The position numbers and the translations under genes were made by a program. Below the pieces are notes generated by a model. The model was not told the origin of the DNA, made no database searches, and worked only from the letters and a program-made list of their open reading frames with translations. Positions 1,172 to 16,028 of a stretch of DNA of 17,075 nt are shown here, piece after piece. Source of the stretch: Myxococcales bacterium (GTDB lineage: Bacteria > Myxococcota > Bradymonadia > UBA7976 > UBA1532). Location of the stretch: contig JACKDM010000075.1 of the NCBI GenBank assembly GCA_020633515.1, forward strand, positions 1 to 17,075, given 5' to 3'. Numbering within the stretch: the first letter of the stretch is position 1; every line of letters starts with the position of its first letter.

Positions 1172-2338
1172 TCAGGGGCACGCGGCGGCGACCCGGTCGA
1201 CGAGCCGGGCGACGCCGTCCGCGAACGCGGCGGGCGGAGTCAGGAGGCTCAGGACCAGGTGCCCGTCACGGGCGAAGTCGTAGAAGAAGCCCGGCTGCAC
1301 CCGCACGCCATCGCGTTCGAGGAGCCACAGCGCCCACTGCTCGTCGTCGACGATCCGCGGTACTTCGACGATCGCGTACCAGCCGCCCTCGGCGCGCAGC
1401 ACCGTCGCAGATGAGCCGCGGACCGCCGCTTCGAGCGCGGCGAGGTTGTCGCGCACCCGCGCCGCGATCGCCGCCGTCGTCGGCCGCGCGGCATCCAGCA
1501 GCGCCGGCAGGGCGTGCTGCACCGGCGCCCCGACCGAGAGCCAGGTGTCGGCGATCAGCTCCAGCCGCGCGAGCGCCTCGTCGACCGCGTCGTCGGGGCC
1601 GGCGAGCGTGATCCAGCCCGCCTTGAGCTGCGGCAGCCCGGCGAGCTTGCTGAGGCCGCCGAGCACGAAGGTCGGGACCCGCGTCGCCGCCTGCGCCGAG
1701 ACCGCGCCGGGCGCGGGGTGCAGCGGGTAGGCGGCGAAGACCTCGTCGGCGATGATCGGGAGCCCGAGCGCTTCGAGCGCGTCGAGCTCGTCGCGCTTGA
1801 GGCGCTGGCCGGTGGGGTTGTTGGGGCTGACGACGAGCAGACCGCGGGTGCGCGGTCCGACGCGGAGCGGCGTCGCGTCGAGGTGCCACGCGCCGTCGTA
1901 GGCGAGCGCGTAGGGGTCGAGGGTGACGCCTTCGAAGGCGGCGAGCTGCTCGAAGAGCGGGTAGCTCGGCCGCGGCGCGAGGATCACGTCGCCGGGGTCG
2001 CACAGCAGCTTGAACAGCCACCCGTAGGCCTCGCTGCTGCTCGCGGTGAGCACGACGCGCCGCGGGTCGACGTCGAGCTCGGCGGCGACCGCGGCGCGCG
2101 CCTCGGGGAGCCCGAACGGCGCCGGCGTGTACCGCAAGGCGCGCGGATCGGCGAGCGCGCGCCGGATCGCCTCGCCGTCGTAGGGCAGCTCGGCGCGGGT
2201 CGGGTTGGAGACGGTCAGGTCGATCACCGGCTCGCCGCGCGACCGCCGCTCGGCGAGCGCGCGGGTGAGGCGGTTCTCGCGCGGGTCGAACGCGGTGCGG
2301 GTCGAGAAGCGGGTCACTGCTCGCCGCGCGCGGCTCAT
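1172..2338 (-). CDS. PLP-dependent class I/II aminotransferase
   Basis: 388 residues, normal for fold-type I aminotransferases. Visible landmarks: an N-terminal LTVSNPT segment (43-47 region), SSSEAYGWLF at the cofactor phosphate region (~100-109), SPNNPTG at 171-177 with the PLP-pyridine Asp in IADEVF (D198), and the Schiff-base lysine in LGGLSKLAGLPQLKAGW (K231). It should transfer an amino group between an amino acid and a 2-oxo acid in the cytoplasm; the substrate cannot be read from sequence. The C-terminal strand reads HLVLSLLTPP, where many class I enzymes have an Arg that binds the substrate alpha-carboxylate, so substrate binding may be non-standard. The ATG at 2338 overlaps the upstream gene's stop as ATGA with no good Shine-Dalgarno, indicating translational coupling to the MopE-repeat lipoprotein. 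Family call is secure. Confidence 0.93.
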   Translation of the reverse strand: MSRARRAVTRFSTRTAFDPRENRLTRALAERRSRGEPVIDLTVSNPTRAELPYDGEAIRRALADPRALRYTPAPFGLPEARAAVAAELDVDPRRVVLTASSSEAYGWLFKLLCDPGDVILAPRPSYPLFEQLAAFEGVTLDPYALAYDGAWHLDATPLRVGPRTRGLLVVSPNNPTGQRLKRDELDALEALGLPIIADEVFAAYPLHPAPGAVSAQAATRVPTFVLGGLSKLAGLPQLKAGWITLAGPDDAVDEALARLELIADTWLSVGAPVQHALPALLDAARPTTAAIAARVRDNLAALEAAVRGSSATVLRAEGGWYAIVEVPRIVDDEQWALWLLERDGVRVQPGFFYDFARDGHLVLSLLTPPAAFADGVARLVDRVAAACP

Positions 2339-3708
2339 CGGGCCCGGAGCGCGACGCCGAACATGTCGTCGCCGTTGACATCGCCGCCGAGGTCGAGGCG
2401 GTTGAAGCGCCCGTCGCCGCGGGTGCCGACGCAGCGGGTGTCGCCGATGTAGGAGCGCGACACCGCCGGGCAGCCAGCCCAGCCGGGGGAGCCGTTGGCG
2501 GGGCCGCGGTCTTCGTCGGCCCAGCCGAGGAAGACCTCGACCTGCGACTGCATCACCGCCGCGAGCCCGGGCCGGGCCGGGTCTTCGCTGCACTTCCACG
2601 CGATCGCGAGGTCGTCGTTGTCGTCGACGTCGCCCTCGGTGTTGAGCGCGCGGAAGAGGCCGTCGTAGCCGGTCGAGGTGCACGAGAGGCTGCCCGATCG
2701 GCCCTGGATCGCGGGCGGGCAGGCGCCGAAGACGTCGACGTCGCCGGGCGCGCGGTTGTTGTCGGCGTAGCCGAGGTAGAGCGCGCAGTGGCTCTGCACC
2801 CACGCCGAGAGCGCGGGGTCGCCGGTGTCGCGGCAGGTGAGCGAGAACGCGAACTGGTCGGTCTCGTCGACGTCGCCGTCGACGTCGAGCACCGCGAAGT
2901 TGCCGTCGTAGCGCGTGCCCACGCAGTGCACGGCGTTCAGCCGATACACGTCCTGCGCGGGGCAGCCGCCCCACACCGGCGAGGCGCCGGCGGGGCCGCG
3001 GCGGCTGTCGGCCCAGGCGAGGAAGAGGCGGCAGCTCTGCTGCACGAAGAGGCCGCAGACGCTCGCCTCGTCGACCGCGCCGTCGCAGTCGTCGTCCCGG
3101 CCGTTGCAGCCCTCGGGCGCGCAGCAGACCCCGCCCTCGTCGATCGCGCCGTCGCAGTCCTGATCGGCGCCGTCGCAGACCTCGTCGACCGGCGCGCAGC
3201 AGGCGTCGCCCTCGTCGGCCACGCCGTCGCAGTCGTCGTCGGCGCCGTTGCAGACCTCGACGCCGCAGCAGACGTCGCCCTCGTCGACCGCGCCGTCGCA
3301 GTCGTCGTCGAGCGCGTTGCAGGTCTCGACCTCGTCGCCCACGCAGCAGCCCGCGCCCTCGTCGACCGCGCCGTCGCAGTCGTCGTCGCGGCCGTTGCAC
3401 TGCTCGGCGTTCATCCGGCAGCAGACCGCGCCCTCGTCGACGGCGAGGTCGCAGTCGTCGTCGCGCTGGTTGCAGATCTCGTCGGTGGGCACGCAGGGGC
3501 CGATCGGCTCGATGTCGGCCTCGGCGTCGGCGGCGGGCGCGGCGTCGTCGGGATCGGGCGGGGTGATGTCCTGGTCGGGCGCGTCGAGCGGCGGGAGCGC
3601 GAGGTCGAGCGCGGCGTCGAGGCCGCCGTCGGCGAGCGGCGGCTGGATCTCGGCGCAGCTCGCGAGCAGCAGAGAGGCGACGGCGACGGTTCGAGCCAGG
3701 GTGCGCAT
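2335..3708 (-). CDS. Lipoprotein with six MopE-type Cys/Asp repeats and three ~80-residue repeats
   Basis: 457 residues. The N-terminus MRTLARTVAVASLLLASC is a lipoprotein signal with the lipidated Cys at 18. An Asp/Pro/Ala-rich linker (20-75) follows, typical of myxobacterial surface lipoproteins. Residues 79-215 hold six copies of C-N-x-x-D-D-D-C-D-G-x-x-D-E (first Cys at 79, 104, 130, 153, 178, 201), the putative metal-binding motif named after the copper-associated MopE protein of Methylococcus. Residues ~223-457 are three tandem copies of an unnamed ~73-82-residue unit with a WAD-x-x-R-x-P motif, GCP, a Y-D-G-x-F motif and an acidic GDVDxxD loop; the third copy has lost some cysteines. 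The gene lies 36 bases after the cyclase and overlaps the aminotransferase by four bases. The start ATG has no clear Shine-Dalgarno. A role as an extracellular metal-binding (perhaps Ca or Cu) protein is inference. Confidence 0.88.
   Translation of the reverse strand: MRTLARTVAVASLLLASCAEIQPPLADGGLDAALDLALPPLDAPDQDITPPDPDDAAPAADAEADIEPIGPCVPTDEICNQRDDDCDLAVDEGAVCCRMNAEQCNGRDDDCDGAVDEGAGCCVGDEVETCNALDDDCDGAVDEGDVCCGVEVCNGADDDCDGVADEGDACCAPVDEVCDGADQDCDGAIDEGGVCCAPEGCNGRDDDCDGAVDEASVCGLFVQQSCRLFLAWADSRRGPAGASPVWGGCPAQDVYRLNAVHCVGTRYDGNFAVLDVDGDVDETDQFAFSLTCRDTGDPALSAWVQSHCALYLGYADNNRAPGDVDVFGACPPAIQGRSGSLSCTSTGYDGLFRALNTEGDVDDNDDLAIAWKCSEDPARPGLAAVMQSQVEVFLGWADEDRGPANGSPGWAGCPAVSRSYIGDTRCVGTRGDGRFNRLDLGGDVNGDDMFGVALRAR
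3067..3474 (-). repeat. Tandem coding repeat of MopE-type motif, six copies
   Basis: This DNA encodes the six CNxxDDDCDGxxDE units of the lipoprotein. On the plus strand it appears as recurring gtcgcagtcgtcgtc-like blocks every 69-78 bases. Spacing is always a multiple of three and the encoded motif is conserved, so this is a protein repeat and not a CRISPR or intergenic repeat. Near-identity of several copies makes it a likely site of copy-number change by recombination. Confidence 0.85.
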
Positions 3709-3744: not shown

Positions 3745-5052
3745 CTACCCGATCACGTCGGCGGTCACCGCCGAGAGCGGCCGGATCGGGCCGGTCGCCG
3801 GGACCGGCGCCATCGGCGCGGTGACGCCCTGCACGAGGAACATGGGCAGCTCGCCGCGCCCCTTGACGCCGATCTTGCCCCGGCTGGTGCAGCGGTAGTG
3901 GGCGGCGACGAGGTCGTAGGTCGCCTGCGAGATGTTGATCCGCCCCGGCAGCCCCGACGCCTCGAGCCGCGCCGCGACGTTGACGGTGTCGCCCCAGACG
4001 TCGTACGCGACCCGGCTCCGCCCCACGACGCCGGCGACGAGCGGCCCGGAGTGGATCCCGATCCGCACCTGCCACCCCCGCTCGCCCCGCGCCTGCGCGT
4101 CCGCGGCGTCGCTCTGCACGTGCGCGAGGATGTCGAGCGCCGCCGCCACCGCCCGCTGCGCGTGCGCCGGATCGGGGGCCGAGACGCCGCCGACGTACAT
4201 GTAGGCGTCGCCGATGGTCTTGAGCTTCTCGAGCCCATGCGACTCGACGATCAGGTCGAGCTGGGCGAAGAGGTGGTCGAGCGCCGCGACCACCGCGTTC
4301 GGGGTCATGCGCGCCGCCGCCGCGGTGAAGCCGACGAGGTCGACGAAGACCACCGTCGCCGCCGGGTGCAGCACCGGCTCGACGCGCCCCTCGCGGGTGA
4401 ACTCGTCGGCGATCGCGGCCGGCATCACGTTGAGCAGCGCGTGGCGGTGCAGCGCGTTGGCCGCGTCGAGCTCCGAGGCGAGCCGCTGCAGCTCCTCGTA
4501 GCGCCACGCGTTGCGGAACATCGCCGCGGTCTGGAGCGCGAGCATCGTCACGATCCGCAGATCGTCGACCCCGTACGCGCCCCCGTCGCGCCCGAAGGCC
4601 AGCGCGCCGACGACCTCCCGCTCGACGTGCAGCGGCACGACGAGCAGCGAGGCCACCGGCGCCGCGCGGCCCTCGATCACCGCGTCGGGGTAGATCCCCG
4701 GCTGCCCGCGGGTCAGCGCGCGGTGCAGCGGCCCGCCCGCCTGCACCGCCGGCCCCGCCGCCTCGGGCCGGCTCCCGTGCGGCTGCACCCGCCAGCCCTC
4801 GCCCTCGACCGCCCGCACGACGACGAAGTGGTCGAAGCCCACCACCCACTTCGTCTGCTGCCAGAGCACGTCGAGGATCGCCTTGATCGACAGCGACCGG
4901 CTCACCGCCACCGCGATCTCGGCGACGCGCGCGATCCGCAGCGACATCGCCTGCAAGTCGGCCACGGCGCCGTGCAGCGCCGCGCGCAGCGCCTCGGCGT
5001 CACCGGGATCGGCGCCGAGGCGAGCCTCGTCGACGAGGGGATGGGCGCGCAT
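3745..5052 (-). CDS. GAF-domain class III adenylate cyclase
   Basis: 435 residues with no membrane span. Residues ~40-185 form a GAF sensor domain (AVSRSLSIKAILDVLW start, LLVVPLHVEREVVGALAFG core, LQTAAMFRNA end). A short helical linker (185-225) leads into the class III cyclase domain (~230-395). Catalytic positions are intact: metal Asp D238 in VFVDLVGFT and D282 in KTIGDAYM, adenine-selecting K278 and D351 in YDVWGDTVN, and transition-state N358 and R362 in NVAARLE. The Lys/Asp pair predicts ATP rather than GTP as substrate, so it should make cAMP in the cytoplasm, as a homodimer, under control of a GAF ligand. The ATG at 5052 has GAGGAG seven bases upstream, and that site overlaps the TGA of the preceding CMD-fold gene, so the two are translationally linked. 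Genes of this type are numerous in myxobacteria. Confidence in catalytic class is high; the signal is unknown. Confidence 0.93.
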   Translation of the reverse strand: MRAHPLVDEARLGADPGDAEALRAALHGAVADLQAMSLRIARVAEIAVAVSRSLSIKAILDVLWQQTKWVVGFDHFVVVRAVEGEGWRVQPHGSRPEAAGPAVQAGGPLHRALTRGQPGIYPDAVIEGRAAPVASLLVVPLHVEREVVGALAFGRDGGAYGVDDLRIVTMLALQTAAMFRNAWRYEELQRLASELDAANALHRHALLNVMPAAIADEFTREGRVEPVLHPAATVVFVDLVGFTAAAARMTPNAVVAALDHLFAQLDLIVESHGLEKLKTIGDAYMYVGGVSAPDPAHAQRAVAAALDILAHVQSDAADAQARGERGWQVRIGIHSGPLVAGVVGRSRVAYDVWGDTVNVAARLEASGLPGRINISQATYDLVAAHYRCTSRGKIGVKGRGELPMFLVQGVTAPMAPVPATGPIRPLSAVTADVIG

Positions 5053-5062
5053 CGGCCGCTCC

Positions 5063-5605
5063 TCAGAGCGCGTCGATCTCGAGATCGATCGCGTCGGTGT
5101 ACTGGTTGACCCCGTTGAAGAGGTGCGCCGTCGCGATGAGCTCGAAGACCTCGTCGGCCCCGAGCCCGGCCTGCTTCAGCGCGGCGAAGTCGGCGGCGGC
5201 GAGCCCCTTGGGATCGGTCCCCGCCTTGAGCCCGAAGCGCAGCGCCGCCCGCTCGGTCGCCGGCAGCGGGCAGCGGTCGACGTCCTCGACGAGCAGCCGC
5301 AGCACCTCCTCGCTGATGCCGAGCGCCGAGAGCCCGTGCAGGTGCACCCGCAGCGCGTACTCGCTGTGGTTGTGCTGCGAGATGAGGATGCCGACCATCT
5401 CCTTGAGCGTGCGGGGCAGCGCGCCCTCGAGCACCGTCGATCGGAAGTGATTCCAGTTGGCTTCGAGGAAGCCGGGCCGACTCGCCATCGAGCGGAAGAG
5501 GTTCGGCACCATGCCGAAGCCGAGCTCGACCCGGATCTCGTCGTACACCCGCTTGACGACCGGATCGGCGGCGTCGTGCTCGCCGATCAAGGGCACCCAT
5601 GCCAT
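5063..5605 (-). CDS. AhpD/carboxymuconolactone decarboxylase-fold protein lacking the active-site cysteines
   Basis: 180 residues from the ATG at 5603-5605, which has a clear GAGGAG six bases upstream (5612-5617); an upstream in-frame start at 5644 has no comparable site. The sequence follows the peroxidase-related CMD pattern: VPNLFRSMASRP (33-44), a KEMVGILIS helix (68-76) with E69, a conserved H88, and a C-terminal HLFNGVNQYTDAI segment (161-173). Family members normally carry C-x-x-C in the segment before the conserved His and act as alkylhydroperoxidases. Here those positions read S81-E-Y-A84, so thiol peroxidase chemistry is not expected. The only cysteine, C112, lies elsewhere. It is the first gene of the minus-strand operon, 10 bases before the cyclase. 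It might be a regulatory or ligand-binding relative, which is inference. Confidence 0.88.
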   Translation of the reverse strand: MAWVPLIGEHDAADPVVKRVYDEIRVELGFGMVPNLFRSMASRPGFLEANWNHFRSTVLEGALPRTLKEMVGILISQHNHSEYALRVHLHGLSALGISEEVLRLLVEDVDRCPLPATERAALRFGLKAGTDPKGLAAADFAALKQAGLGADEVFELIATAHLFNGVNQYTDAIDLEIDAL

Positions 5606-5657
5606 CGCGCACTCCTCGGGCGCTCGCGGCGCGTCTCGTGGCACTCGAGGCTTCGCG

Positions 5658-5689: not shown

Positions 5690-5707
5690 CTGTCACATGA
5701 ATGACAG
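5690..5707. promoter_or_regulatory. Inverted repeat CTGTCA-N6-TGACAG, candidate CRP-family-type site
   Basis: Perfect 6-base arms (5690-5695 and 5702-5707) around CATGAA. The 16-base core TGTCA-N6-TGACA has the spacing of CRP-family operators (TGTGA-N6-TCACA) with a changed half-site, and also fits the TGTY-N8-RAC pattern described for the CRP-family protein MrpC of Myxococcus xanthus. Another TGACA follows at 5711-5715. Because the operon it precedes encodes an adenylate cyclase, cAMP feedback is an attractive but untested idea. Confidence 0.45.
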
Positions 5708-5847
5708 AGGTGACACGGCGAAACATTCACTCAACCAGATGTGACACGAAGATACGGCCGGGCGCGAAAACTCATTATGATAAGGCCAATTACGTGGCGC
5801 GCCATGCGCCGGCCGGGTCGAGCCCCATCACTCGACGCGGCGTATTG

Positions 5848-5876
5848 AGTATACTCCGGTTCTCATATTGTGACAA
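5848..5876 (-). promoter_or_regulatory. Sigma70-like promoter reading toward the CMD-cyclase operon
   Basis: On the minus strand TTGTCA (5876-5871) is followed after exactly 17 bases by TATACT (5853-5848). Each hexamer differs from the sigma70 consensus at one base and the spacing is ideal; such a match is rare in DNA this GC-rich. Transcription would begin near 5841 and give a leader of about 236 bases before the first start codon, containing both inverted repeats. A second promoter closer to the gene cannot be excluded. Confidence 0.55.
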
Positions 5877-5921
5877 CGGGATCTGGCAGGCAGATGACGC
5901 GGGCGTTGCAAGCCGGGGCCG

Positions 5922-6860
5922 ATGCCTTCAGGATGCACAGATGGTTGGTCCGCGCAGAATGTCACGGCATCACCCCTCCTACCCGGCAAACCCCGCTCCC
6001 GGGCGCCGCGCGGCGGTGGCCGCGCTGTGGGCGCTGCTGCTCGCCGCGTCGTGGGCGCTGCTGCTCGCCGCGCCGCCGCCGCCGCGCCCGACGCCGCGCT
6101 CGACGGGGCGCTCGACGGCGACCTCGGCGACGCCGGCCCGGTCGACGCGCAGCCCGACGCGCCGCCGCCTGAGCCGCAGGACAGCGGCCCTCCCCTCCCC
6201 GGCGAGGTCGACGCGGCCGCCGCCGAGCCGGTCGCCATCGACCGCGACACCTCGACCGACACCCTCCGCCGCCAGATCGCGGCGCTCTCGCCGCTCGCCG
6301 AGGGCAAGCCGCCGGCCGAGGGGGTCGAGATCGCGACGCTCTTCCAGGTCGACCTGCGCGACGACGCCGGGGTGCACGCGCGCATGGCCGAGCTGCGGGC
6401 GGCGATCGACGCGGCGCGCGCCGAGGTCGACCCGCTCGTCGCGCGCAAGACGGCCGCCGAGCAGGGCCGCGCGGCGCAGCCGACGCTCGAAGAGGCGGCG
6501 CGGCTCGAGCGCCTCGGGCTCCTCGTCGAGCGCGAGGGGCTGCGGCTCGCGGTGCTGACCCGGCCGCTCGCCGAGCGGATCGCGCTCCTCGAAGCGGAGG
6601 CGGCGCGGCGGCGGGCGGCGACGGAGCAGGCGTCGGCGGCGGCGATGCGGGTCGAGGCCGAAGAGCGGTGCGCCGCGCCGAGCTGGCCCGCGAAGAGGCG
6701 CTGCGCGAGGCGGAGAGCGCGCGCAGCGAGGCGGCGCGGGCGCTCGCGCAGGCGCGGGCGGCGGCGGAGCGGGTGCGCGGCGAGCTCGCGGCGCTGCGGG
6801 GCACGGCCGCCGAGCAGCGCGCGACGCGGGCCGAGGCGGCGCAGCGGCGGACCGATCTGA
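5922..6860 (+). CDS. N-terminal part of split membrane ATPase: signal peptide and periplasmic coiled coil (frame broken)
   Basis: This open frame is genuine only between about 6075 and 6668. Before 6075 the real coding frame is one step over: starting at ATG 5941 or ATG 5959 (MSRHHPSYPANPAPG), it encodes a signal peptide with the core ALWALLLAASWALLLAA. After it the frame shown here continues with APDAALDGALDGDLGDAG, an acidic Pro/Asp linker, then TLRRQIAALSPLAEG and a long Ala/Glu/Arg coiled coil to AAAMRVEAEE. Beyond ~6668 this frame turns into Arg/Ser-rich out-of-frame sequence, while the downstream frame carries on the same coiled coil (RRAELAREEALREAESARS). Both switches equal loss of one base, so this and the next entry are almost certainly one gene of ~1,110 codons. 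AGGA lies eight bases before ATG 5941. Secretion signal plus coiled coil resembles the N-terminal region of MscK/KefA-type channels. Confidence 0.6.
   Translation: MPSGCTDGWSAQNVTASPLLPGKPRSRAPRGGGRAVGAAARRVVGAAARRAAAAAPDAALDGALDGDLGDAGPVDAQPDAPPPEPQDSGPPLPGEVDAAAAEPVAIDRDTSTDTLRRQIAALSPLAEGKPPAEGVEIATLFQVDLRDDAGVHARMAELRAAIDAARAEVDPLVARKTAAEQGRAAQPTLEEAARLERLGLLVEREGLRLAVLTRPLAERIALLEAEAARRRAATEQASAAAMRVEAEERCAAPSWPAKRRCARRRARAARRRGRSRRRGRRRSGCAASSRRCGARPPSSARRGPRRRSGGPI
5941..6075 (+). other. Signal-peptide coding segment in the first frame of the split ATPase gene
   Basis: In this frame the ATG at 5941 or 5959 leads to a basic start, then RRAAVAALWALLLAASWALLLAA, a convincing signal peptide or membrane anchor. 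Past 6075 the frame becomes PPPPRPTPRSTGR and Ser/Thr/Arg-rich, which is out-of-frame composition for this genome. The fitting continuation lies in the adjacent frame. The hydrophobic core is doubled by a 24-base tandem repeat. Confidence 0.55.
6027..6074 (+). repeat. 24-base tandem duplication in the signal-peptide coding DNA
   Basis: Bases 6027-6050 and 6051-6074 are 24-base units (both begin gtgggcgctgctgctcgcc) differing at one position (t6049 versus c6073). The duplication adds eight residues (WALLLAAS then WALLLAAP) and keeps frame. It ends exactly where the apparent frameshift begins, in a run of gcc triplets, so slippage during replication or sequencing is a plausible common cause. 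Confidence 0.8.
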
Positions 6861-9283
6861 TCCATTGGGTGCGGACGACGCTCGCCGAGCCGCAGACGAG
6901 CGCGGCGACGGTCGACGCGCTGCACGACACGATCGTGCCCGAGCTGATGACCGCGCGCGCCGATCTGGCGGCGGCGCTCGACGTGGTCGACGAGCCGGTC
7001 GCCGCCCCCGCGCTCGAGGCGCCGGTCGACCTCGACGCGGCGGTCTACCGGGCGCTGCCGCTGGAGCGCGACGCGGTGCTGCGGGCGTTCGAGGCGGCGG
7101 GCAAGGAGCGGGCGACCTACGTGGCCGAGGTCGAGGCCGACCGCCGGGCGGCGGTGCCGGCGACCGCCGAGCAGGTCAAGACGCTCAACGACCTGCGCCT
7201 CGCGCTGCTGCCGCGGCTGAGCCCGACGCGGCGCGAGGCGGTGCTCGGGCTCGGCACGCAGGGCATCGAGCAGCTCCGGCGCGAGCTCGGGCACCTGCAG
7301 TTGATGACGCGCTACTACGTCTTCCAGCGGCGCGCGAAGATGCGGCAGGCGAGCGGCTGGCTCGTCGAGACGCTCGGGCGGGCGTCGACCCGGTGGACGC
7401 TGATCGAGCTGTTGCTGCTCGCGCTGCTCGCGGTGCCGCTCGCGCTGCGGCGGCGGCGCATCCTCGACTGGATCGACGCCCGGATCCAGGGCTGGGCCGA
7501 GGACGACCACCCGCGGGCGCAGGTGCGCTGGGATCGCGCGGTCGCGGCCGATCGGCGCCAGCTCGTCGAGCGGTGGTGGCCGCCGATCAAGGCGCTGGCG
7601 TTCCCGCTCGCCTTCTATGCCTTCGTGCAGCTCGCGTTCGGGCTCCTCGTCGAGCTGATCGACGCGCCCGAGACGCGGTTGATCGCGCGGGTCGCCGAGG
7701 TGATGGCGACCTACTGGCTGGTGATCGCGCTGGTGCATTACGTGCTGGTGCGGATCGCCTCGCGGCCGGGCGCGCCGATCGACGAGCAGTTCAGCGCGCG
7801 GCTGCTGCGCACGGTGCGCCTCGCCGGGCGCACGGCGGCGGTGCTCTCGGTGTTCCTGATCGTCGCCGAGGTGGTGCTCGGGCGGGGCTACCTCTACACG
7901 CTGGTGCTCGACTTCGCGTGGTTCGCGGCGGTGCCGATCGGCTGGGTGACGATCCGGCGCTGGCAGCCCGACATCTTCGCGGCCTACCTGCGCATGGCGC
8001 CGGGCGGCTCGATGGCGTCGCTCGTCGAGCGCGCCCGCGGCAAGCTGTGGGGCGCGTTCGTGGCGGTGCCGGTCGCGCTCTACCTCGGGGTGCGGCGCAG
8101 CGGGCAGATCGTCGGGCGCTGGGTGATGCGGCTGGAGCACGTGCGGCGGGCGCTGGCCTTCCTGTTCTTGCGGCGGCTCGAGAAGCAGGCGACCGCCGAT
8201 CGCGCGACCGCGGCGCCGGATCGGCCGCCGCCGGCCGAGGTGGTCGCGATCATCGAGCAGAAGCCGATCGACGACGCGGTGCGGGTCGAGCACTTCCCGG
8301 GGCTCGCGGCCGCGGTCGGCGACATCGCGGCGTGGCGCGCGGGCGCGATCGGGATCTCGTGGGCGGTCGTCGGCGAGCGCGGGATCGGGCGCACGGCGTG
8401 GCTCGACACCTTCGTCGCGCGGATCGGCGAGGGCGCGGCGGTGCTGCGGATCGATCGGCCGGTGCCGACGGCCGAGGCGCTGTGCCGGTGGCTGGTCGAC
8501 GCGCTCGGGCTCGGTGAGGCGCCGGCGACCGTCGATGGCATCGTCGCCGCGCTCGAAGGCGGGTCGGCGCGGCTGGTGATCCTCGACGACGTGCAGTTCT
8601 CGGCGCAGCGGGCGGCGGGGCGGCAGGCGGGCTTCGAGGCGCTGTTGCAGATCGTGCGGCGCTCGCACCGCACGGCGTGGGTGTGCAGCGTCAGCCGCTA
8701 CCTGTGGGCGTGGCTGATGTTCGCGCGCAAGGGGCAGGATGTCTTCCGTCACACCGCGGTGCTCGACCGCTGGAGCGAGCGCGACGTCGCGGGGCTGATC
8801 GACCGGCGCATGGCGGCGGCGGGGCGGAGCGTGACCTTCGAGGATCTGATGGACAACCCCGATCAGGTCTTCGAGCGCGAAGAGGAGCTCTTGCGCACCC
8901 GTGAGCGCTACCTGCGGCTGCTTTGGGACTACGCCGAGGGCATCCCCGATCTGGTGCTGCACTTCTGGGCGCGCTCGCTGGTCGACCCGGGCGACGGCGG
9001 GCCGCTGCGGGTGCGGCTCTTCGAGGTGCCCAAGCCCGACGAGCTCGAAGACCTCTCCGATCCGGCGCGCTTCGCGCTGCACGCGGTGGTGATGCACACC
9101 CGGCTCTCGCTCGACGACGCGCCGACGGTGTTGCAGCTCGCCCCCGCGGCGGCGCACGCGATGCTCGAACAGCTCCGCGCGCTCGGCTGCCTCGTCGCCG
9201 AGGGGTCGAGCTACCGGATCCCCATCCACTGGCACCGAGCGGTCGTGCGCTTCCTGCGGCGCAAGCACCTGCTGTTGTCTTGA
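6668..9283 (+). CDS. Multispan membrane protein with cytosolic P-loop ATPase domain (C-terminal part of split gene)
   Basis: 871 residues from a GTG at 6668, but that GTG is probably internal (see the preceding entries). Residues 1-60 are coiled coil, ~60-240 a helical, probably periplasmic region, then about six hydrophobic spans near 244-260, 306-331, 338-363, 385-404, 408-428 and 459-475. From ~540 a cytosolic NTPase domain begins: Walker A-like GERGIGRT (569-576, with Arg in place of the usual Lys), Walker B-like RLVILDD (635-641), a possible sensor segment WVCSVSRYLWAW (671-682), and an AAA/STAND-like helical lid. Residues ~795-871 look like a winged-helix (LDDAPTVLQLAPAAAHAMLEQ, then a CLVAEGSSYRIP wing). 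The layout equals the N-terminal half of an MscK-type protein joined to an ATPase. The MscS gene starts 24 bases downstream, so the two products probably work together in the inner membrane. I do not recognise a named family; KAP- or AAA-like membrane NTPases are the nearest comparison. Confidence 0.8.
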   Translation: MRRAELAREEALREAESARSEAARALAQARAAAERVRGELAALRGTAAEQRATRAEAAQRRTDLIHWVRTTLAEPQTSAATVDALHDTIVPELMTARADLAAALDVVDEPVAAPALEAPVDLDAAVYRALPLERDAVLRAFEAAGKERATYVAEVEADRRAAVPATAEQVKTLNDLRLALLPRLSPTRREAVLGLGTQGIEQLRRELGHLQLMTRYYVFQRRAKMRQASGWLVETLGRASTRWTLIELLLLALLAVPLALRRRRILDWIDARIQGWAEDDHPRAQVRWDRAVAADRRQLVERWWPPIKALAFPLAFYAFVQLAFGLLVELIDAPETRLIARVAEVMATYWLVIALVHYVLVRIASRPGAPIDEQFSARLLRTVRLAGRTAAVLSVFLIVAEVVLGRGYLYTLVLDFAWFAAVPIGWVTIRRWQPDIFAAYLRMAPGGSMASLVERARGKLWGAFVAVPVALYLGVRRSGQIVGRWVMRLEHVRRALAFLFLRRLEKQATADRATAAPDRPPPAEVVAIIEQKPIDDAVRVEHFPGLAAAVGDIAAWRAGAIGISWAVVGERGIGRTAWLDTFVARIGEGAAVLRIDRPVPTAEALCRWLVDALGLGEAPATVDGIVAALEGGSARLVILDDVQFSAQRAAGRQAGFEALLQIVRRSHRTAWVCSVSRYLWAWLMFARKGQDVFRHTAVLDRWSERDVAGLIDRRMAAAGRSVTFEDLMDNPDQVFEREEELLRTRERYLRLLWDYAEGIPDLVLHFWARSLVDPGDGGPLRVRLFEVPKPDELEDLSDPARFALHAVVMHTRLSLDDAPTVLQLAPAAAHAMLEQLRALGCLVAEGSSYRIPIHWHRAVVRFLRRKHLLLS

Positions 9284-9307
9284 GGCCGATCGAAGGAGCG
9301 ATCTGAC

Positions 9308-10150
9308 ATGGACGAGAGCCTCAACATCGTCGAGTTCATCCGCATCGGTGGCATCGTGCCGGCGCTCTTCGTGCTGTTCGTCACCTGGATGATCAGCGCG
9401 ACGATCACCCGCTTCACCGATCGCATGGGGAGCCGCTTCTCCGAGCGGCGGCTGGTGTTGCAGCAAGCCAACACCGTGATGCGGTTCATCTTCTCGTTCG
9501 CGGGGATCGCCGGCGCGGTGGTGCTGGTGTTCCGGCTGAGCGAGCAGATGCTGCTCGCGATCGGCGGCACGCTCGCGGTCGCGGTCGGTATCGCGCTCAA
9601 GGATCTCGCCGCGTCGATCGTGGCGGGGCTGATGATCCTCTTCGACCGGCCGTTCCAGGTCGGCGATCGGGTCTCATTCGGTGGCTTCTATGGTGAGATC
9701 CAGCGGATCGGGCTGCGATCGGTGCGGCTGGTGACGCTCGACGACAACCTCGTGACCATCCCCAACAACAAGTTCCTGACCGACATCGTCTCGTCGGGCA
9801 ACGCGGGCGCGCTCGACATGCTGGTGCAGGTCGACTTCTTCATCGGGGTCGATCAAGACATCGCGACGGCGCGGCGGATCGTCGAGGACGTGGTGACGAC
9901 GTGCCGTTATGCCTACCTCGACAAGCCCTGGTCGGTGCTCGCCGCGCAGGTGATGCAGGAGGGCTACTACGCGGTGCGGCTGCGGGCCAAGGTGTACGTG
10001 CTCGATGTCATCTACGAGAAGGCATTGGAGAGCGACCTGACGGTGCGGGTGCTCGACACCTTCCGCCGCGATGGGATCCGCCCGCCGGCGCTGCTGCACC
10101 GCGACGTGGCCGACGAGAAGCGGCCGCCGGTGATCCGGGCGGTGGGGTGA
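9308..10150 (+). CDS. Small-conductance mechanosensitive channel (MscS family)
   Basis: 280 residues, close to the size of E. coli MscS. Spans lie near 12-30, 57-76 and 80-112. The third contains the pore-lining Gly/Ala pattern LAIGGTLAVAVGIALKDLAASIVAGL followed by ILFDRPFQVGD, the diagnostic junction to the cytosolic beta domain. IPNNKF (151-156) and the C-terminal alpha/beta region (RRIVEDVV, VYVLDVIYEKALESDLTVRVLDTF) complete the vestibule. It should form a heptameric inner-membrane channel opened by membrane tension. The ATG has AAGGAG nine bases upstream. It follows the membrane ATPase by 24 bases and is surely co-transcribed. It ends 8 bases before the convergent lipoprotein stop. Separation of the channel core from a larger MscK-like partner carrying an ATPase is the unusual point. 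Confidence 0.95.
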   Translation: MDESLNIVEFIRIGGIVPALFVLFVTWMISATITRFTDRMGSRFSERRLVLQQANTVMRFIFSFAGIAGAVVLVFRLSEQMLLAIGGTLAVAVGIALKDLAASIVAGLMILFDRPFQVGDRVSFGGFYGEIQRIGLRSVRLVTLDDNLVTIPNNKFLTDIVSSGNAGALDMLVQVDFFIGVDQDIATARRIVEDVVTTCRYAYLDKPWSVLAAQVMQEGYYAVRLRAKVYVLDVIYEKALESDLTVRVLDTFRRDGIRPPALLHRDVADEKRPPVIRAVG

Positions 10151-10158
10151 GCGGCCGG

Positions 10159-11145
10159 TCAGTTCCCGCGGGTGCTGCGCACGACCTCGGCGCGGATCCA
10201 GTTGAGCAGCCGCACATGGCGGCTGTCATCGCTGCCGCGGAAGACATCGCGGCCGCCGTGCATGGGATCGCGGGGCTGGGTGAGCAGCGGTGACTCGAGC
10301 GGGTTGAGCCAGTCGATGTAGATCTGCGAGGCGACGAAGTTCCACTCGATCGCGCACTCGGAGTCTTCTTCGAGGAGCCAGTAGTCACCGCCCTCACCGG
10401 CGAGGGCATGGCAGCCGCCGTTGCGCGCGCACGAGCCGACGAGGACGTCGTTGTGCGAGACGCCGTCGGGGTCTTCGCGCTCGAAGTCGTCGCGGTACGT
10501 CTGCGAGCGGGCGCCGCCGTTGCCTTCGGGGCCGAGCAGCGCCTCGCAGGGCGGGCGGACCGGGTTGCCCCCGTCGGGTCCGTCGACCCCGGCGTCGCCG
10601 CAGTCGCCGGGCTCGGGCTCGACGATGCGGGTGCCGTTCTCGATCCACTCGATGATGGCATCCTTGAGCGGCCCGTCGCCGATGTAGCCGGGGTGGCCGT
10701 TCGGGTGCCAGTCGATGAGATCGCTCCCCGCCGGATCGGCTGCGTCGACGAAGGAGAGGCACTCGGCGACGTTGAGCTGGTTCTGCTCGGGGGTGAGGCC
10801 GGCGGGGCCGTTCCGCACGAGCGTGAACGGCGCGCCCGGCCGTGGCTCCGGGTCGTTGTGGCACACCCCACAGGCGATGTAGAGCGGCTGCGCGATCTCG
10901 GCGGCGAAGTACTCGGGGTCGGGCTCGAAGACGCTGCGCGGTCCGCAGAGATCGGGCTCCATGTCCATCCCGGGCTCGGGCTCCGGCTCGGGCCCCGGCG
11001 GATCGACGGGCATGTCGGTCATGACTCCCCGGTCGAGGGGGTCGTACTCGGGCCCGAGCGGCGGCTCGCTGCAACCGACGGCCACCACGCCGAGGAGAGC
11101 GGCCCCTGCGAGCGCGCGCCTGCCCATGCCTGTCTCACCGCGCAT
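10159..11145 (-). CDS. Lipoprotein with two cytochrome-c-like halves (one CxxCH heme site)
   Basis: 328 residues. Signal ALAGAALLGVVAVGC gives a lipidated Cys at 25, followed by a Pro/Glu/Met-rich linker (PGPEPEPEPGMDMEPD). Residues ~75-175 and ~230-325 are two similar halves: C-x-x-C-H (CGVCH, 92-96) then a D-L-I-D-W-x-P-x-x-H segment and IIEWIENG; and CARNGGCH (239-246) then SPLLTQPRDPMH and VRLLNWI. The pattern is that of cytochrome-c-like domains of myxobacterial and planctomycete surface proteins. The first half has a normal heme c site; the second has five residues between the cysteines, so covalent heme attachment there is doubtful. The ATG at 11145 has GGGGGAG six bases upstream. The gene lies 57 bases after the multiheme cytochrome in the same direction and is probably co-transcribed, suggesting an electron-transfer partner at the membrane surface. 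Confidence 0.85.
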   Translation of the reverse strand: MRGETGMGRRALAGAALLGVVAVGCSEPPLGPEYDPLDRGVMTDMPVDPPGPEPEPEPGMDMEPDLCGPRSVFEPDPEYFAAEIAQPLYIACGVCHNDPEPRPGAPFTLVRNGPAGLTPEQNQLNVAECLSFVDAADPAGSDLIDWHPNGHPGYIGDGPLKDAIIEWIENGTRIVEPEPGDCGDAGVDGPDGGNPVRPPCEALLGPEGNGGARSQTYRDDFEREDPDGVSHNDVLVGSCARNGGCHALAGEGGDYWLLEEDSECAIEWNFVASQIYIDWLNPLESPLLTQPRDPMHGGRDVFRGSDDSRHVRLLNWIRAEVVRSTRGN

Positions 11146-11202: not shown

Positions 11203-14200
11203 CTACTGCAACAGGTTGGCCGCCTGACCCTGGGCGTTGCCGTCGGCGTCGAACCAGGCGTCGAGGATCAACCCGTTGTAGATGTTGTCGCCGCCCACGA
11301 GCCGCTGGAGCTGCGCGCTGCCGAGGGGGCCGCCCATCTGCGAGTTGGTGGCGCCGCCGCGCTGCGCGCCCTGCAAGGTCTCGCGGGGGTGGGCGTTCGA
11401 CGAGTTGGGGATGCCGTTGAACTCGACCATGCGGTCGAGATCGTAGGCGACGTTGTTGACCTGGTCGGCGAAGTTGACCGCCGGGGCGACGCCGTTGCAG
11501 TTCTGCCGGTTCGCGTTGTTGTCGAGCGGGTTGACCGGGCACCCGTTCGCGTCGAACAGGTAGGTGCCGGTGCCCATGCCCGACATCATGCGGACGAAGA
11601 ACGGCGAGTTGTTCTGGTTGCCGGTGTTCTGGCCGATGTTCGCCGCGAGGACGTTGAAGTCGAGGTTGGCGAAGTCCTGGTTGTCATACGCCGCCACGAA
11701 GGCATCGTACTGCGCCATGAGATCGGCGTTGGCGATCATGGCGTCGTTGAGGTGGCAGGCGACGCAGTAGCTCGGGCCTTCGTTCTGTCCGTCGACGGCG
11801 CCGCGGATCGAGTGGGGCATGAGCTGGTTCATGGCATTGGCGGGGAAGTCGTTGCGGCCGCCGAGCGCGGGGTTGTTGCCTTCGCCGAGGCGGTCGGAGA
11901 AGACGAAGACGTCCGAGGTGTCGCCGTTGAGGTCGACGAAGCGCCAGAAGACCTTCTGGCCGGCGTAGACCTTGGTGATCTTCCCGCGGCTGTTGACGCC
12001 GAGGTACTGGTTGACCGGGTTCTGGTAGACGAAGTCGGCCGCCGTCTGGTTGAGCAGGATGCGCTCGCCGGTGATGTTGCTGAAGAAGTAGTTGGCGGGG
12101 TTGACATCGTAGGCATTGGCGAGATGGCAGCCGATGCAGTTGTTGATCCACGACGCATGGCAGCTCTGGCAGTCCATGGTGTCGAGGTGGCTGAAGCCTT
12201 CGGTGTACAGGTTGGGGTTGGCCTGCAAGGGGCCGGTGCCGGTCTGCGGGTTGCCATCGGCGCGTCCCATGGCATACGAGGCCTTGGGGCTGTAGAGGTT
12301 GTTGAGCGTGATCGGGTGGGTGCGCTGCGAGAGGATGGTGACGTCCTTGGTCTGCGGCAGGTAGTGCCGCTGGCCGTCGACCCGGCTGATGAGCCAGTAG
12401 TGGCCCTGCGGGTCCTTGGTGACGTGCTTCATCGGGTTGCCGTTCTTGTCGGTCGTGCACTCCGCGGCCTGGCCGCTGTAGGTGGTGCAGGGCACCGTGC
12501 GCGCGAAGCCTTCGACCGTGCCGTGGCAGTTCTCGCAGGTGAGCGCGGTCGCCTGGTTCATGCGGCTGACGACCTGCCCCGAGGTCGCGTCGCCCGCCGT
12601 GCCGCCGTGCAGGTCGCGGCTGCCGTGGCAGTCGATGCAGCCGAGCCCGCGCTCGTAGTGGATGTCGGGCGGGGTGTCGTCGCGGCCGTCGGCGTCGTAG
12701 TCCTCGGTGAGGATGTACTGGTTGGCGTTGCGGCCGTTGAAGGTGTTGTTGGCCACCGCCGGGTTGTACAGCCGCTGGTCCTGCGCGGTGTTCTCGAAGT
12801 CGTCGGGGTTGGCCGGGTACTGGAAGTTGTTGACGAGGTCCTGGTTCTGGTCGAGCCGGATCCCCCAGAACTGGAGCACGGTGCGGTTGCTGCCCTGGTG
12901 GCAGCCGACGCAGGCGCGGTCGCTGATGCCGCGCACGAACGCGCCGTTGGGCAGGATCTTGGCGACGTTGCGGATCTGGTGGCTGAGGACGTGGGCGCGC
13001 TCGCCGGCGGCGATGGCGTCGGGGTTGGCGGGCTCGTCGCGGGGCACGTTGGGGTCGAAGCCGGCGTGGCGGCCGTCGTAGCTGTACTCCATGTGGCAGG
13101 CGGTGCAGCCCGAGGAGCGGAAGTCGGCGTAGCGGTTGTTGGCGCCGGCGCTGTAGAGGTGGCAGTCGCCGCAGGTGATGCTGACCTGCTCGTCGATGAG
13201 GGTCTCGAGCGGGCTGCCGGCGCGGACGCGGTTGGGCTTCTGCTGGTCCTGGTTGGCGTTGATGATGTGGTTGTTGAGGTTGGCGGCGAGGTAGTTGCCG
13301 TTGTCTCGCATCTGGCCGTTGTACGCGGCGAGCTCGGGCTGCTCGACGAGGCGGCCGATCTCACCGACGCGGGCGCTGGCGGCGTCGAACGCGGGGTTCT
13401 GCACCGTGCGGGGCGCCGAGTCGGCGAGCGAGTTGGCGTCGCGGTTGCCGCGGTACTCGGGGATGCGGTTGTCGACGCCGACGAGGAAGCGGGTCGCCGA
13501 GAAGATGCCGGTCGAGGTGGCGATCATCGAGCGCGGGACCCACTGCGCGTGCTCGTCGTAGTGGCAGCCCTGCTGGCCGCAGCCGCGGCCGGCGGAGACG
13601 ACGCGGAGGTCGCCGGGGTTGATGAACTGGAGGTAGTCGAGGTTGGAGTACTGCTGGCCGTTGGGGCCGGTGTACGGGTCGGGGGTGAGCTTGTCGACGC
13701 CGGCGAGGGTGACGCGGTTGAAGAAGGCCTTGTTGTTGTTGGCCTGGAAGATGCGGTCGCCGATCTCGGGCGGGGCGGGGACGTGGCTGCCGTTCTTGCC
13801 GGCGCCGCGGCCGTTGCCGCCGTGGCAGCCGGTGCAGGGCACGTACTGCGCGGGCGCGAAGGGGTGGGGGTTGCCGATGCCGTTGCCGCTGTAGTCGTTG
13901 GCCTGCGCGCCGTTGTGGCATGCCATGCAGCTCTCGGCGTTCTGCGGGATCGGCGCCTCGGGCTCGGGTTCGCCGGGCTCGGGGGGGGGGTCGCAGGCGC
14001 CGGGGTCGGGCTCGCAGTAGCGGGGGTCGCACTCGCAGCAGGCGAGGCGGTACTGGAAGTCCGCTTCGTTGCAGCGGTCGAGCGCTTCGCAGTCGTAGGT
14101 GGTGCCGCGGTAGTCGTACGCGCCGCAGTTGTTGTCCTCGCCGATCGGCGCGGCGTCGGGCGTGAGGTTCTCGGCGTCGACGATGACGTCGCCGTCGAGC

Positions 14201-14307
14201 TGCGGCGCGGCGCCATCGGGCGTCACGAGCACCTCGGGGTCGTCACATCCGGCGAGCAGTACGAGCGCGACGGCGAGCGTCGACGCGGTGCGATTGAATC
14301 GAAGCAT
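11203..14307 (-). CDS. Lipoprotein multiheme c-type cytochrome (10 CxxCH plus one CX4CH)
   Basis: 1,034 residues from the ATG at 14305-14307, which has GGGGGAAG five bases upstream; an upstream in-frame start at 14340 has no such site and would lengthen the signal by 11 residues. The signal ends in LLAGC with lipidated Cys 21. Residues 61-105 form a Cys-rich module with eight cysteines, followed by a Pro/Glu linker. Heme sites: CMACH 127, CTGCH 158, CGQQGCH 243 (four-residue gap), CGDCH 379, CTACH 401, CVGCH 466, CIDCH 557, CENCH 591, CQSCH 713, CIGCH 724, CVACH 848. The C-terminal ~180 residues are Asn/Gly-rich with no heme site. Proteins of this build sit at the cell surface and pass electrons outward or receive them; no substrate-reducing family signature was recognised. 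LysR lies upstream and a CxxCH lipoprotein downstream, on the same strand. A poly-C run occurs in the linker codons. Confidence 0.95.
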   Translation of the reverse strand: MLRFNRTASTLAVALVLLAGCDDPEVLVTPDGAAPQLDGDVIVDAENLTPDAAPIGEDNNCGAYDYRGTTYDCEALDRCNEADFQYRLACCECDPRYCEPDPGACDPPPEPGEPEPEAPIPQNAESCMACHNGAQANDYSGNGIGNPHPFAPAQYVPCTGCHGGNGRGAGKNGSHVPAPPEIGDRIFQANNNKAFFNRVTLAGVDKLTPDPYTGPNGQQYSNLDYLQFINPGDLRVVSAGRGCGQQGCHYDEHAQWVPRSMIATSTGIFSATRFLVGVDNRIPEYRGNRDANSLADSAPRTVQNPAFDAASARVGEIGRLVEQPELAAYNGQMRDNGNYLAANLNNHIINANQDQQKPNRVRAGSPLETLIDEQVSITCGDCHLYSAGANNRYADFRSSGCTACHMEYSYDGRHAGFDPNVPRDEPANPDAIAAGERAHVLSHQIRNVAKILPNGAFVRGISDRACVGCHQGSNRTVLQFWGIRLDQNQDLVNNFQYPANPDDFENTAQDQRLYNPAVANNTFNGRNANQYILTEDYDADGRDDTPPDIHYERGLGCIDCHGSRDLHGGTAGDATSGQVVSRMNQATALTCENCHGTVEGFARTVPCTTYSGQAAECTTDKNGNPMKHVTKDPQGHYWLISRVDGQRHYLPQTKDVTILSQRTHPITLNNLYSPKASYAMGRADGNPQTGTGPLQANPNLYTEGFSHLDTMDCQSCHASWINNCIGCHLANAYDVNPANYFFSNITGERILLNQTAADFVYQNPVNQYLGVNSRGKITKVYAGQKVFWRFVDLNGDTSDVFVFSDRLGEGNNPALGGRNDFPANAMNQLMPHSIRGAVDGQNEGPSYCVACHLNDAMIANADLMAQYDAFVAAYDNQDFANLDFNVLAANIGQNTGNQNNSPFFVRMMSGMGTGTYLFDANGCPVNPLDNNANRQNCNGVAPAVNFADQVNNVAYDLDRMVEFNGIPNSSNAHPRETLQGAQRGGATNSQMGGPLGSAQLQRLVGGDNIYNGLILDAWFDADGNAQGQAANLLQ
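13981..13990 (-). repeat. 10-base homopolymer (poly-C in the coding strand) within the cytochrome gene
   Basis: Ten consecutive G on the plus strand, read as GAC CCC CCC CCC GAG in the cytochrome gene (residues 106-109 region, in the Pro/Glu linker). Tracts of this length are slippage-prone. A one-base change would truncate the protein before all heme sites, so it is a candidate on/off switch or a sequencing-error hotspot. At present the frame is intact. Confidence 0.8.
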
Positions 14308-14445
14308 GCCCACTTCCCCCTTCCGGCTGTCGACCATCATTGCAGTCGGTCGGGCGCAGCGTCCAGCACAAAAAAACCGGCGTCAGGGGTGAAGTCACCA
14401 GCGGTCACCATGCGTTACGTGCGCGTCGAATCGCGGTTTTCGAAG
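14308..14445 (-). promoter_or_regulatory. Gap between LysR gene and multiheme cytochrome with repeat elements
   Basis: Reading the minus strand, this 138-base gap contains two copies of GGTGAC ten bases apart, the second forming the hairpin-capable palindrome GGTGA-CT-TCACC (14388-14399), then 11 bases later a run of seven T (14376-14370). It could be an imperfect terminator after LysR or, given the one-turn spacing of the repeats, a regulator binding site upstream of the cytochrome. The stem is short and not adjacent to the T run, so a classical intrinsic terminator is not established. No convincing -35/-10 pair was seen. Confidence 0.35.
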
Positions 14446-15327: not shown

Positions 15328-15339
15328 CGCCTTTGGCGA
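15327..15339. promoter_or_regulatory. Inverted repeat TCGCC-TTT-GGCGA at the LysR start
   Basis: Perfect 5-base arms around TTT, directly at the LysR ATG, in the 98-base divergent gap to KptA (15328-15425). It could be an auto-regulatory operator or a small mRNA hairpin occluding the ATG. The nearby tctatcaagttt (15346-15357) is the only AT-rich patch and may hold the LysR promoter. Functional assignment is tentative. Confidence 0.3.
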
Positions 15340-15425
15340 AGGTCTATCAAGTTTCGCGTCTTCCGGTCGACGGCCCGGGTCGCCATCATCGGCGGCGTTC
15401 ATGCACAACCGAGAGCGAGGACGCG

Positions 15426-16028
15426 ATGACCGCGGAGCAGATCAAGGAGAAGAGCCGCAAGCTGTCGTGGCTGCTGCGGCACGGGGCGGGCGAAGAGGGG
15501 CTGCCGATGGACGCGGCGGGCTGGGTGCCGGTGAGGGCGGTGCTGACCCGGCTGCGGCTGTCGCCGGCGGCGCTCGGCGAGATCGTCGAGCAGAACAACA
15601 AACAGCGGCTGGAGTGGGTCGGCGACCGGATCCGCTGCTGCCAGGGGCACTCACGGGAGGGCATGCCGGTGACGCAGGCCGCGCTCGAGGCGTCGTGGAC
15701 GCCGTGGACGGGCGGGGTGGTGTGGCACGGGACGCGGGCGGCGGTGGTGCCGGCGATCGCGCGGGAGGGGATCGTGCCGGGTCGGCGGACCCACGTTCAC
15801 CTCGCGCCGGGGCTCGACAGCGGCGTCGGCAAGCGCGCCGAGGTCGAGGTGATGCTGGCGGTCGATCCGGCGCGCATGGCGGCGGCCGGGCTCGGGCTGT
15901 GGGCGGCGTCGAACGGGGTGGTGCTCGCGCGGGCGGTGCCGCCGGGCTGCATCATCGAGCTGCGGGCGATGACCCGGCGGGCGCGGCCGCAGGAGGCGGC
16001 GCTGCGGGGCGCGCTCGGGCTGGGTTGA
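15426..16028 (+). CDS. kptA: RNA 2'-phosphotransferase (Tpt1/KptA family)
   Basis: 200 residues, usual for bacterial KptA. The ATG at 15426 has GAGG five bases upstream; a longer frame from 15333 lacks support. Tpt1/KptA transfers an internal RNA 2'-phosphate to NAD+, giving ADP-ribose 1'',2''-cyclic phosphate and nicotinamide. Visible landmarks: LSWLLRHG with the Arg-His pair (R18, H19), the RLEWVGDRIRCCQGHS segment with R70, WHGTR (100-104), RTHVHLA (121-127) and NGVVLARAVPPGCIIE. All expected catalytic Arg/His positions appear present. The common IRAxQGHS motif reads IRCCQGHS here. The enzyme completes tRNA splicing in eukaryotes; bacteria lack that pathway, so its role is unclear, with clean-up of 2'-phosphorylated RNA ends or ADP-ribosylation of 5'-phosphates as options from published biochemistry. 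It stands alone, divergent from LysR and convergent with the TPR gene. Confidence 0.94.
   Translation: MTAEQIKEKSRKLSWLLRHGAGEEGLPMDAAGWVPVRAVLTRLRLSPAALGEIVEQNNKQRLEWVGDRIRCCQGHSREGMPVTQAALEASWTPWTGGVVWHGTRAAVVPAIAREGIVPGRRTHVHLAPGLDSGVGKRAEVEVMLAVDPARMAAAGLGLWAASNGVVLARAVPPGCIIELRAMTRRARPQEAALRGALGLG

Follow-up and report, generated by a model that had tools for sequence, protein, structure and literature searches.

A conserved gene pair in Myxococcota encoding a membrane AAA+ protein with moderate resemblance to MscK and an MscS-type channel protein

Contig JACKDM010000075.1 of a Myxococcales bacterium (assembly GCA_020633515.1) was analyzed over its whole length of 17,075 nucleotides, hereafter called the window. 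On its forward strand it carries a gene for a membrane AAA+ protein (5941-9283) followed by a gene for an MscS-type channel protein (9308-10150). An initial annotation had described the first as an MscK-like membrane ATPase and the second as the MscS core missing from it, and had suggested that the two form a channel serving either osmotic control or conflict-type membrane permeabilization. The pairing of the ATPase with MscS is a conserved system, beyond chance. The computations established the domain layout, a moderate resemblance to MscK, the AAA+ fold and a near-obligate co-inheritance and adjacency of the two genes.

As assembled, the ATPase gene is broken twice and spread over three frames. 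It begins at ATG 5941 in frame 1, inside the open reading frame (ORF) 5701-6558, and the translation of 5941-6110, judged by eye, looks like the signal peptide that the initial annotation had seen here. The first break lies before 6111, where the match to relatives begins in frame 3 (tblastn); this segment (6111-6665), the first part of a presumably periplasmic helical domain, is in tblastn against the window 88% identical to the relative P0002 and 100% identical to P0001. The second break lies between 6665 and 6680, and the relatives match 6680-9280 in frame 2 (tblastn). The main open frame, 6668-9283 with the stop codon at 9281-9283, encodes 871 amino acids which comprise the rest of the helical domain, the membrane spans, the AAA+ domain and the winged helix; over this frame P0001 is 97% and P0002 93% identical to the window. 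The relatives P0001-P0007 have one unbroken frame each, of 1073-1117 amino acids, and the two breaks probably reflect either errors in the assembly or a defect at this locus. They were left unmended, the frames of the window being assigned by comparison with the relatives. P0001, the closest relative, comes from a metagenome assembly named ‘Myxococcales bacterium’ and contains one stretch which reads unlike the other relatives.

The N-terminal half of the ATPase protein consists of the helical domain followed by hydrophobic spans. At a hydropathy cut of 1.5 there are five of these (7385-7954, P0002 residues 472-661), and in the models it is this stretch that lines up with the membrane bundle of MscK. 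A sixth, weaker segment in the hydropathy plot (8045-8113, P0002 692-714) would lie at the membrane interface if the AAA+ domain faces the cytoplasm. The mean hydropathy of 41 relatives gives six segments with the second and the sixth weak, both at about 1.4, and the ‘about six’ spans of the initial annotation was a fair estimate. When models of the N-terminal half of relatives were compared with the PDB using Foldseek, the top two matches were both E. coli MscK, with modest scores. The link to MscK emerged from structure comparison and from a profile built on 14 sequences; with a profile of two MscK/MscM sequences the value was 2%, and MscK was not among the matches of a profile of the N-terminal half to PDB sequences. 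A profile of the whole family gave 247 matches to PDB sequences, the best 60 of which were nearly all generic P-loop proteins.

MscK is a heptamer with a periplasmic domain, a peripheral bundle of transmembrane segments (TM) 1-6 and a core made of TM7-11 and the C-terminal domain (PMC9653487). The ATPase protein has the large N-terminal helical domain, presumably periplasmic, and after it the multi-span peripheral bundle. The MscS core (TM7-11 and C-terminal domain) is absent from the polypeptide; an MscS domain was found neither in the protein of the window nor in the six relatives tested. Judged from the models, the N-terminal half resembles MscK to a moderate degree, and a kinship of that degree is what can be kept of the earlier comparison.

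The C-terminal part matches AAA_22 (PF13401) with E 4.5e-6. The AlphaFold2 model of P0002 has an AAA+ fold (8222-9037, residues 751-1022, delimited with PF13401, the model and PDB comparison) and a C-terminal winged helix (9041-9274, residues 1024-1101, from the model and PDB comparison). This part had been called a P-loop ATPase with a winged-helix-like tail, and an NTPase fold is indeed what the model presents. Among PDB folds the closest to the modeled AAA+ domain of relatives are Orc/Cdc6 and TnsC, both with a winged helix. These closest folds, DNA-binding initiators and TnsC, could mean that the winged helix binds DNA and that the protein is a membrane-tethered regulator sensing membrane tension or turgor via MscS. 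A common fold does not demonstrate DNA binding, however, and the ten neighboring ORFs tested include no conserved target gene; of the readings considered here we give this one the least credence. Replication or transposition genes were not found among the few neighbors tested.

The Walker A motif, GERGIGRT (8372-8395), has an arginine in place of the usual lysine, both in the window and in P0002-P0004, and the Walker B motif is RLVILDDVQ (8570-8596). The lysine is kept in 65 of 82 aligned copies. Because of the arginine, ATP hydrolysis by the copy in the window is doubtful, and with a degenerate Walker A in some family members, the one in the window among them, binding of nucleotide is a better fit than its continuous hydrolysis. 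There is also a very divergent fringe of the family (P0013, P0014, P0072 and the loci L119, L121 and L124-L126), several members of which have an altered Walker A or B and whose loci have weaker MscS partners; fringe members have possibly lost ATPase activity.

The MscS gene starts 24 nucleotides past the stop codon of the ATPase gene and is preceded by the ribosome-binding site AAGGAG (9293-9298, by eye), the arrangement that the initial annotation had reported. Its product of 280 amino acids has three spans ending in a pore helix, the MscS beta domain (MS_channel_2nd, E 1.8e-19) and a C-terminal part, and its PDB matches are MscS, YnaI, MscK and MscM. Seven genomes were compared for their MscS proteins. 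The partner MscS is 51-87% identical to that of the window in six of them; non-partner MscS proteins reach at most 34% in matches of at least 130 residues, and three shorter non-partner matches have 37-46%.

The pairing was surveyed in two sets of loci. The first comprises ten: seven from species genomes and three from Novosphingobium and Caulobacter plasmids. Nine of them have the partner MscS immediately downstream of the ATPase; the remaining one, L004, is a contig of 3.3 kb and 0.9x coverage with no MscS in the 711 nucleotides available past the ATPase. The second set comes from 282 sampled genomes of the phylum of G001, taken as Myxococcota from the genome titled Sandaracinus in it, in which the ATPase domain was searched with a cutoff of E 1e-10 and at most seven candidates were scored per genome; L001-L004 and L007 of the first set recur in it, and the sets are not independent. 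The domain was matched at 92 places in 83 genomes, 75 of which have a single match. All 92 places were profile-scanned for MscS, and at 88 an MscS match starts on the same strand at most 363 nucleotides past the ATPase stop (E below 1e-30 at 83 places, 2.5e-16 to 1.8e-4 at the other five). The initial annotation had left it to such a survey whether the ATPase is always next to MscS or fused with it: the two nearly always adjoin, and a fused ATPase-MscS protein was not found among the survey loci. As to the four exceptions, L065 has its partner MscS 3.5 kb downstream; in L101 the beginning of an MscS can be read ahead of an apparently misjoined contig, with a later MscS fragment at a contig end elsewhere (by eye); the contig of L113 stops 5 nucleotides past the ATPase match; and L037 is the locus L004 again. 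L113 and L062, both from genome G362, are probably one split gene.

In the reverse test an alignment of the partner MscS proteins was run against the same 282 genomes with a cutoff of E 1e-35. Partner-type MscS was found in 80 genomes, 78 of which are also positive for the ATPase. In the remaining two, G231 and G315, the contig ends just upstream of the MscS gene, within what is likely the tail of the ATPase gene; by eye, the visible stretch reads like that tail clearly in G231 and merely suggestively in G315. Five ATPase-positive genomes had no MscS at this cutoff, and in four of them (G194, G270, G287 and G322) a more divergent MscS adjoins the ATPase, while none was seen in G004. The test was also made in 99 genomes of a second phylum, that of G006 (Thermoanaerobaculales), taken as Acidobacteriota. 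The ATPase lies upstream at all of the four best MscS places there, one of which is the query's own locus, and is weak at two of them (tblastn E 8e-8 to 9e-11). It was absent from 12 other MscS loci, namely the six next-best in Acidobacteriota and six from the seven-genome comparison. Tree distances of ATPase and MscS in 82 pairs correlate with r 0.70, above all of 1000 permutations (maximum 0.16), although common descent alone could produce much of this correlation.

The MscS protein looks complete, and MscS of E. coli works without a partner. The two genes might therefore be merely co-operonic for osmotic control, with the MscS acting alone and no physical association between the products. 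We hold this to be quite unlikely in view of the near-total adjacency and co-occurrence across phyla, the 12 MscS loci without the ATPase, and the lack of an own MscS domain in the MscK-like protein of the six relatives tested.

The strict pairing would also suit an ATPase which serves as an assembly, quality-control or turnover factor and inserts, remodels or removes MscS rings at the expense of ATP. AAA+ domains often remodel partner proteins, and the PDB matches of the whole model include remodeling ATPases such as NSF. Against this, the N-terminal half resembles the peripheral module of MscK, which is itself a channel structure, and the Walker A degeneracy of some family members speaks against an obligate motor. 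We consider such a factor unlikely, although it is the alternative that we take most seriously.

Outside Myxococcota the pair occurs among Acidobacteriota, and three plasmids of Alphaproteobacteria carry it. Novosphingobium pentaromativorans US6-1 has one such pair (JI59_RS21590/RS21595). With the full-length, alanine-rich proteins as queries the protein searches returned at least 11 and at least 9 proteins. A query limited to the C-terminal region of a relative from Alphaproteobacteria returned at least 59, which include the query's own record and P0002; the named ones are mostly from Novosphingobium, Croceicoccus, Altererythrobacter and other Sphingomonadales, as protein records without neighborhoods and under the names hypothetical protein or AAA ATPase. 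Two tandem MscS genes follow one ATPase gene in L010 (6717-8560, Caulobacter plasmid pNIBR24541) and in genome G254, and such tandems might yield hetero-oligomeric pores. On pNIBR24541 conjugation genes lie about 2.6 kb downstream of the tandem.

A P-loop ATPase with a winged helix beside a pore former could also be an NTP-dependent conflict system, in which a STAND-like sensor triggers the MscS pore and the membrane is permeabilized upon infection, and the three plasmid-borne pairs would agree with this. Of ten neighboring ORFs compared with Pfam, a thin sample, nine had no match (some are perhaps not real genes), and the tenth is a glycosyltransferase family 4 gene which follows the pair in L005 (4789-6135) and also matches Pfam GT4-conflict with E 2.4e-16, weaker than its matches to ordinary glycosyltransferase families. 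The nine ORFs without a match count against a conflict system, if weakly. Also against it are the lack of a PADLOC match for the two proteins at E 0.1, the wide and mostly single-copy presence (83 of the 282 Myxococcota genomes, 75 with one match) and a protein that ends at the winged helix, without C-terminal sensor repeats. We hold a conflict role to be very unlikely, although the tests behind this, PADLOC and the neighborhood, are thin. The layout and pairing described by the initial annotation stand, and its conflict-type permeabilization has little support.

On the whole we lean towards the reading that the products of both genes belong to a single membrane complex, related to MscK but split, whose peripheral module bears an AAA+ domain. 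Our confidence in it was lowered by the unsettled number of spans (five or six) and by the GT4-conflict match near the L005 pair, which slightly raised the standing of a conflict system. The Walker A lysine of the window is, besides, an arginine, and one of the 92 ATPase places (L037/L004) has no MscS in the sequence available.

In the proposed complex the MscS-type protein would form a tension-gated pore, presumably a heptamer as in other MscS channels. The larger protein would be an MscK-type peripheral module, its helical periplasmic domain and transmembrane bundle encircling the pore, and where MscK enters the channel core this module would instead terminate with an Orc/Cdc6-TnsC-type AAA+ domain and its winged helix. 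The AAA+ domains would then lie at the cytoplasmic face beside the MscS vestibule, and their nucleotide state or oligomerization could tune how easily the channel opens. A further, tentative idea is a two-protein mechanosensitive channel in which MscK-type paddles, encoded separately, surround the MscS pore and carry a cytoplasmic AAA+ ring, the opening tension being set by the cell's nucleotide state, in other words an energy-coupled osmotic valve.

The two-gene unit may be a valve that responds to pressure and is adjusted to the energy state of the cell. A conserved MscS whose dedicated partner is an AAA+ protein, present in two further phyla besides 83 of the 282 Myxococcota genomes, would be a new mode of channel regulation. 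Since module and pore have separate genes, the role of the MscK-like module would be directly testable, the pore being recordable with and without it. The pair also offers a testable function for proteins which at present carry the names hypothetical protein, ATP-binding protein or AAA ATPase.

Divergent from the MscK-like gene is a gene for a protein with a GAF domain and an adenylate/guanylate cyclase catalytic domain (3745-5052, reverse strand; PF00211, E 1.4e-50), and between the two lies a CMD-family gene (5063-5644). A repetitive Cys/Asp-rich protein matching the MopE metal-binding motif is encoded at 2335-3708 (reverse strand; PF11617, E 2.1e-15). On the other side of the pair are a gene for a multiheme cytochrome-like protein of 1045 amino acids with Pfam matches to cytochrome c3/c7 and MtrC/MtrF-like families (11203-14340, reverse strand), after it a gene for a protein of 328 amino acids without a Pfam match (10159-11145, reverse strand), and a member of the RNA 2'-phosphotransferase KptA/Tpt1 family, here in a bacterium (15333-16028, forward strand; PF01885, E 4.6e-35).

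Channels of the MscS family are known as tension valves encoded by one gene. MscM (YjeP), YbiO and YnaI are members of the superfamily with extra peripheral spans, encoded by single genes and without an ATPase, whereas here two genes make up a pair with an AAA+ domain. The MscS proteins of Myxococcus xanthus have been counted (PMC3924187). Searches of an open-access library, which lacks most subscription papers, listed no paper on an AAA+ ATPase paired with MscS. The pair shares with MscK/KefA of E. coli (PDB 7ux1 and 7uw5) the large helical periplasmic domain, the outer transmembrane bundle and an MscS pore within the unit. It differs in that the MscS core has a gene to itself and that the peripheral module has five or six spans and ends in an AAA+ domain; activation dependent on external K+ is a feature of MscK. 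Unlike MscS proteins in general, the partner MscS forms a subgroup of its own, inherited together with an AAA+ membrane protein dedicated to it, the exceptions listed above aside. With Orc1/Cdc6 and TnsC the ATPase has in common the AAA+ fold and the C-terminal winged helix, as modeled for the relative P0002, but it is membrane-anchored behind an MscK-like module and some members of the family have a degenerate Walker A. Each half has a known fold; their combination, in which an MscK-like module has its own gene, is fused to an AAA+ ATPase and almost always has an MscS as its pair, is not described in any paper that the searches of the open-access library listed.
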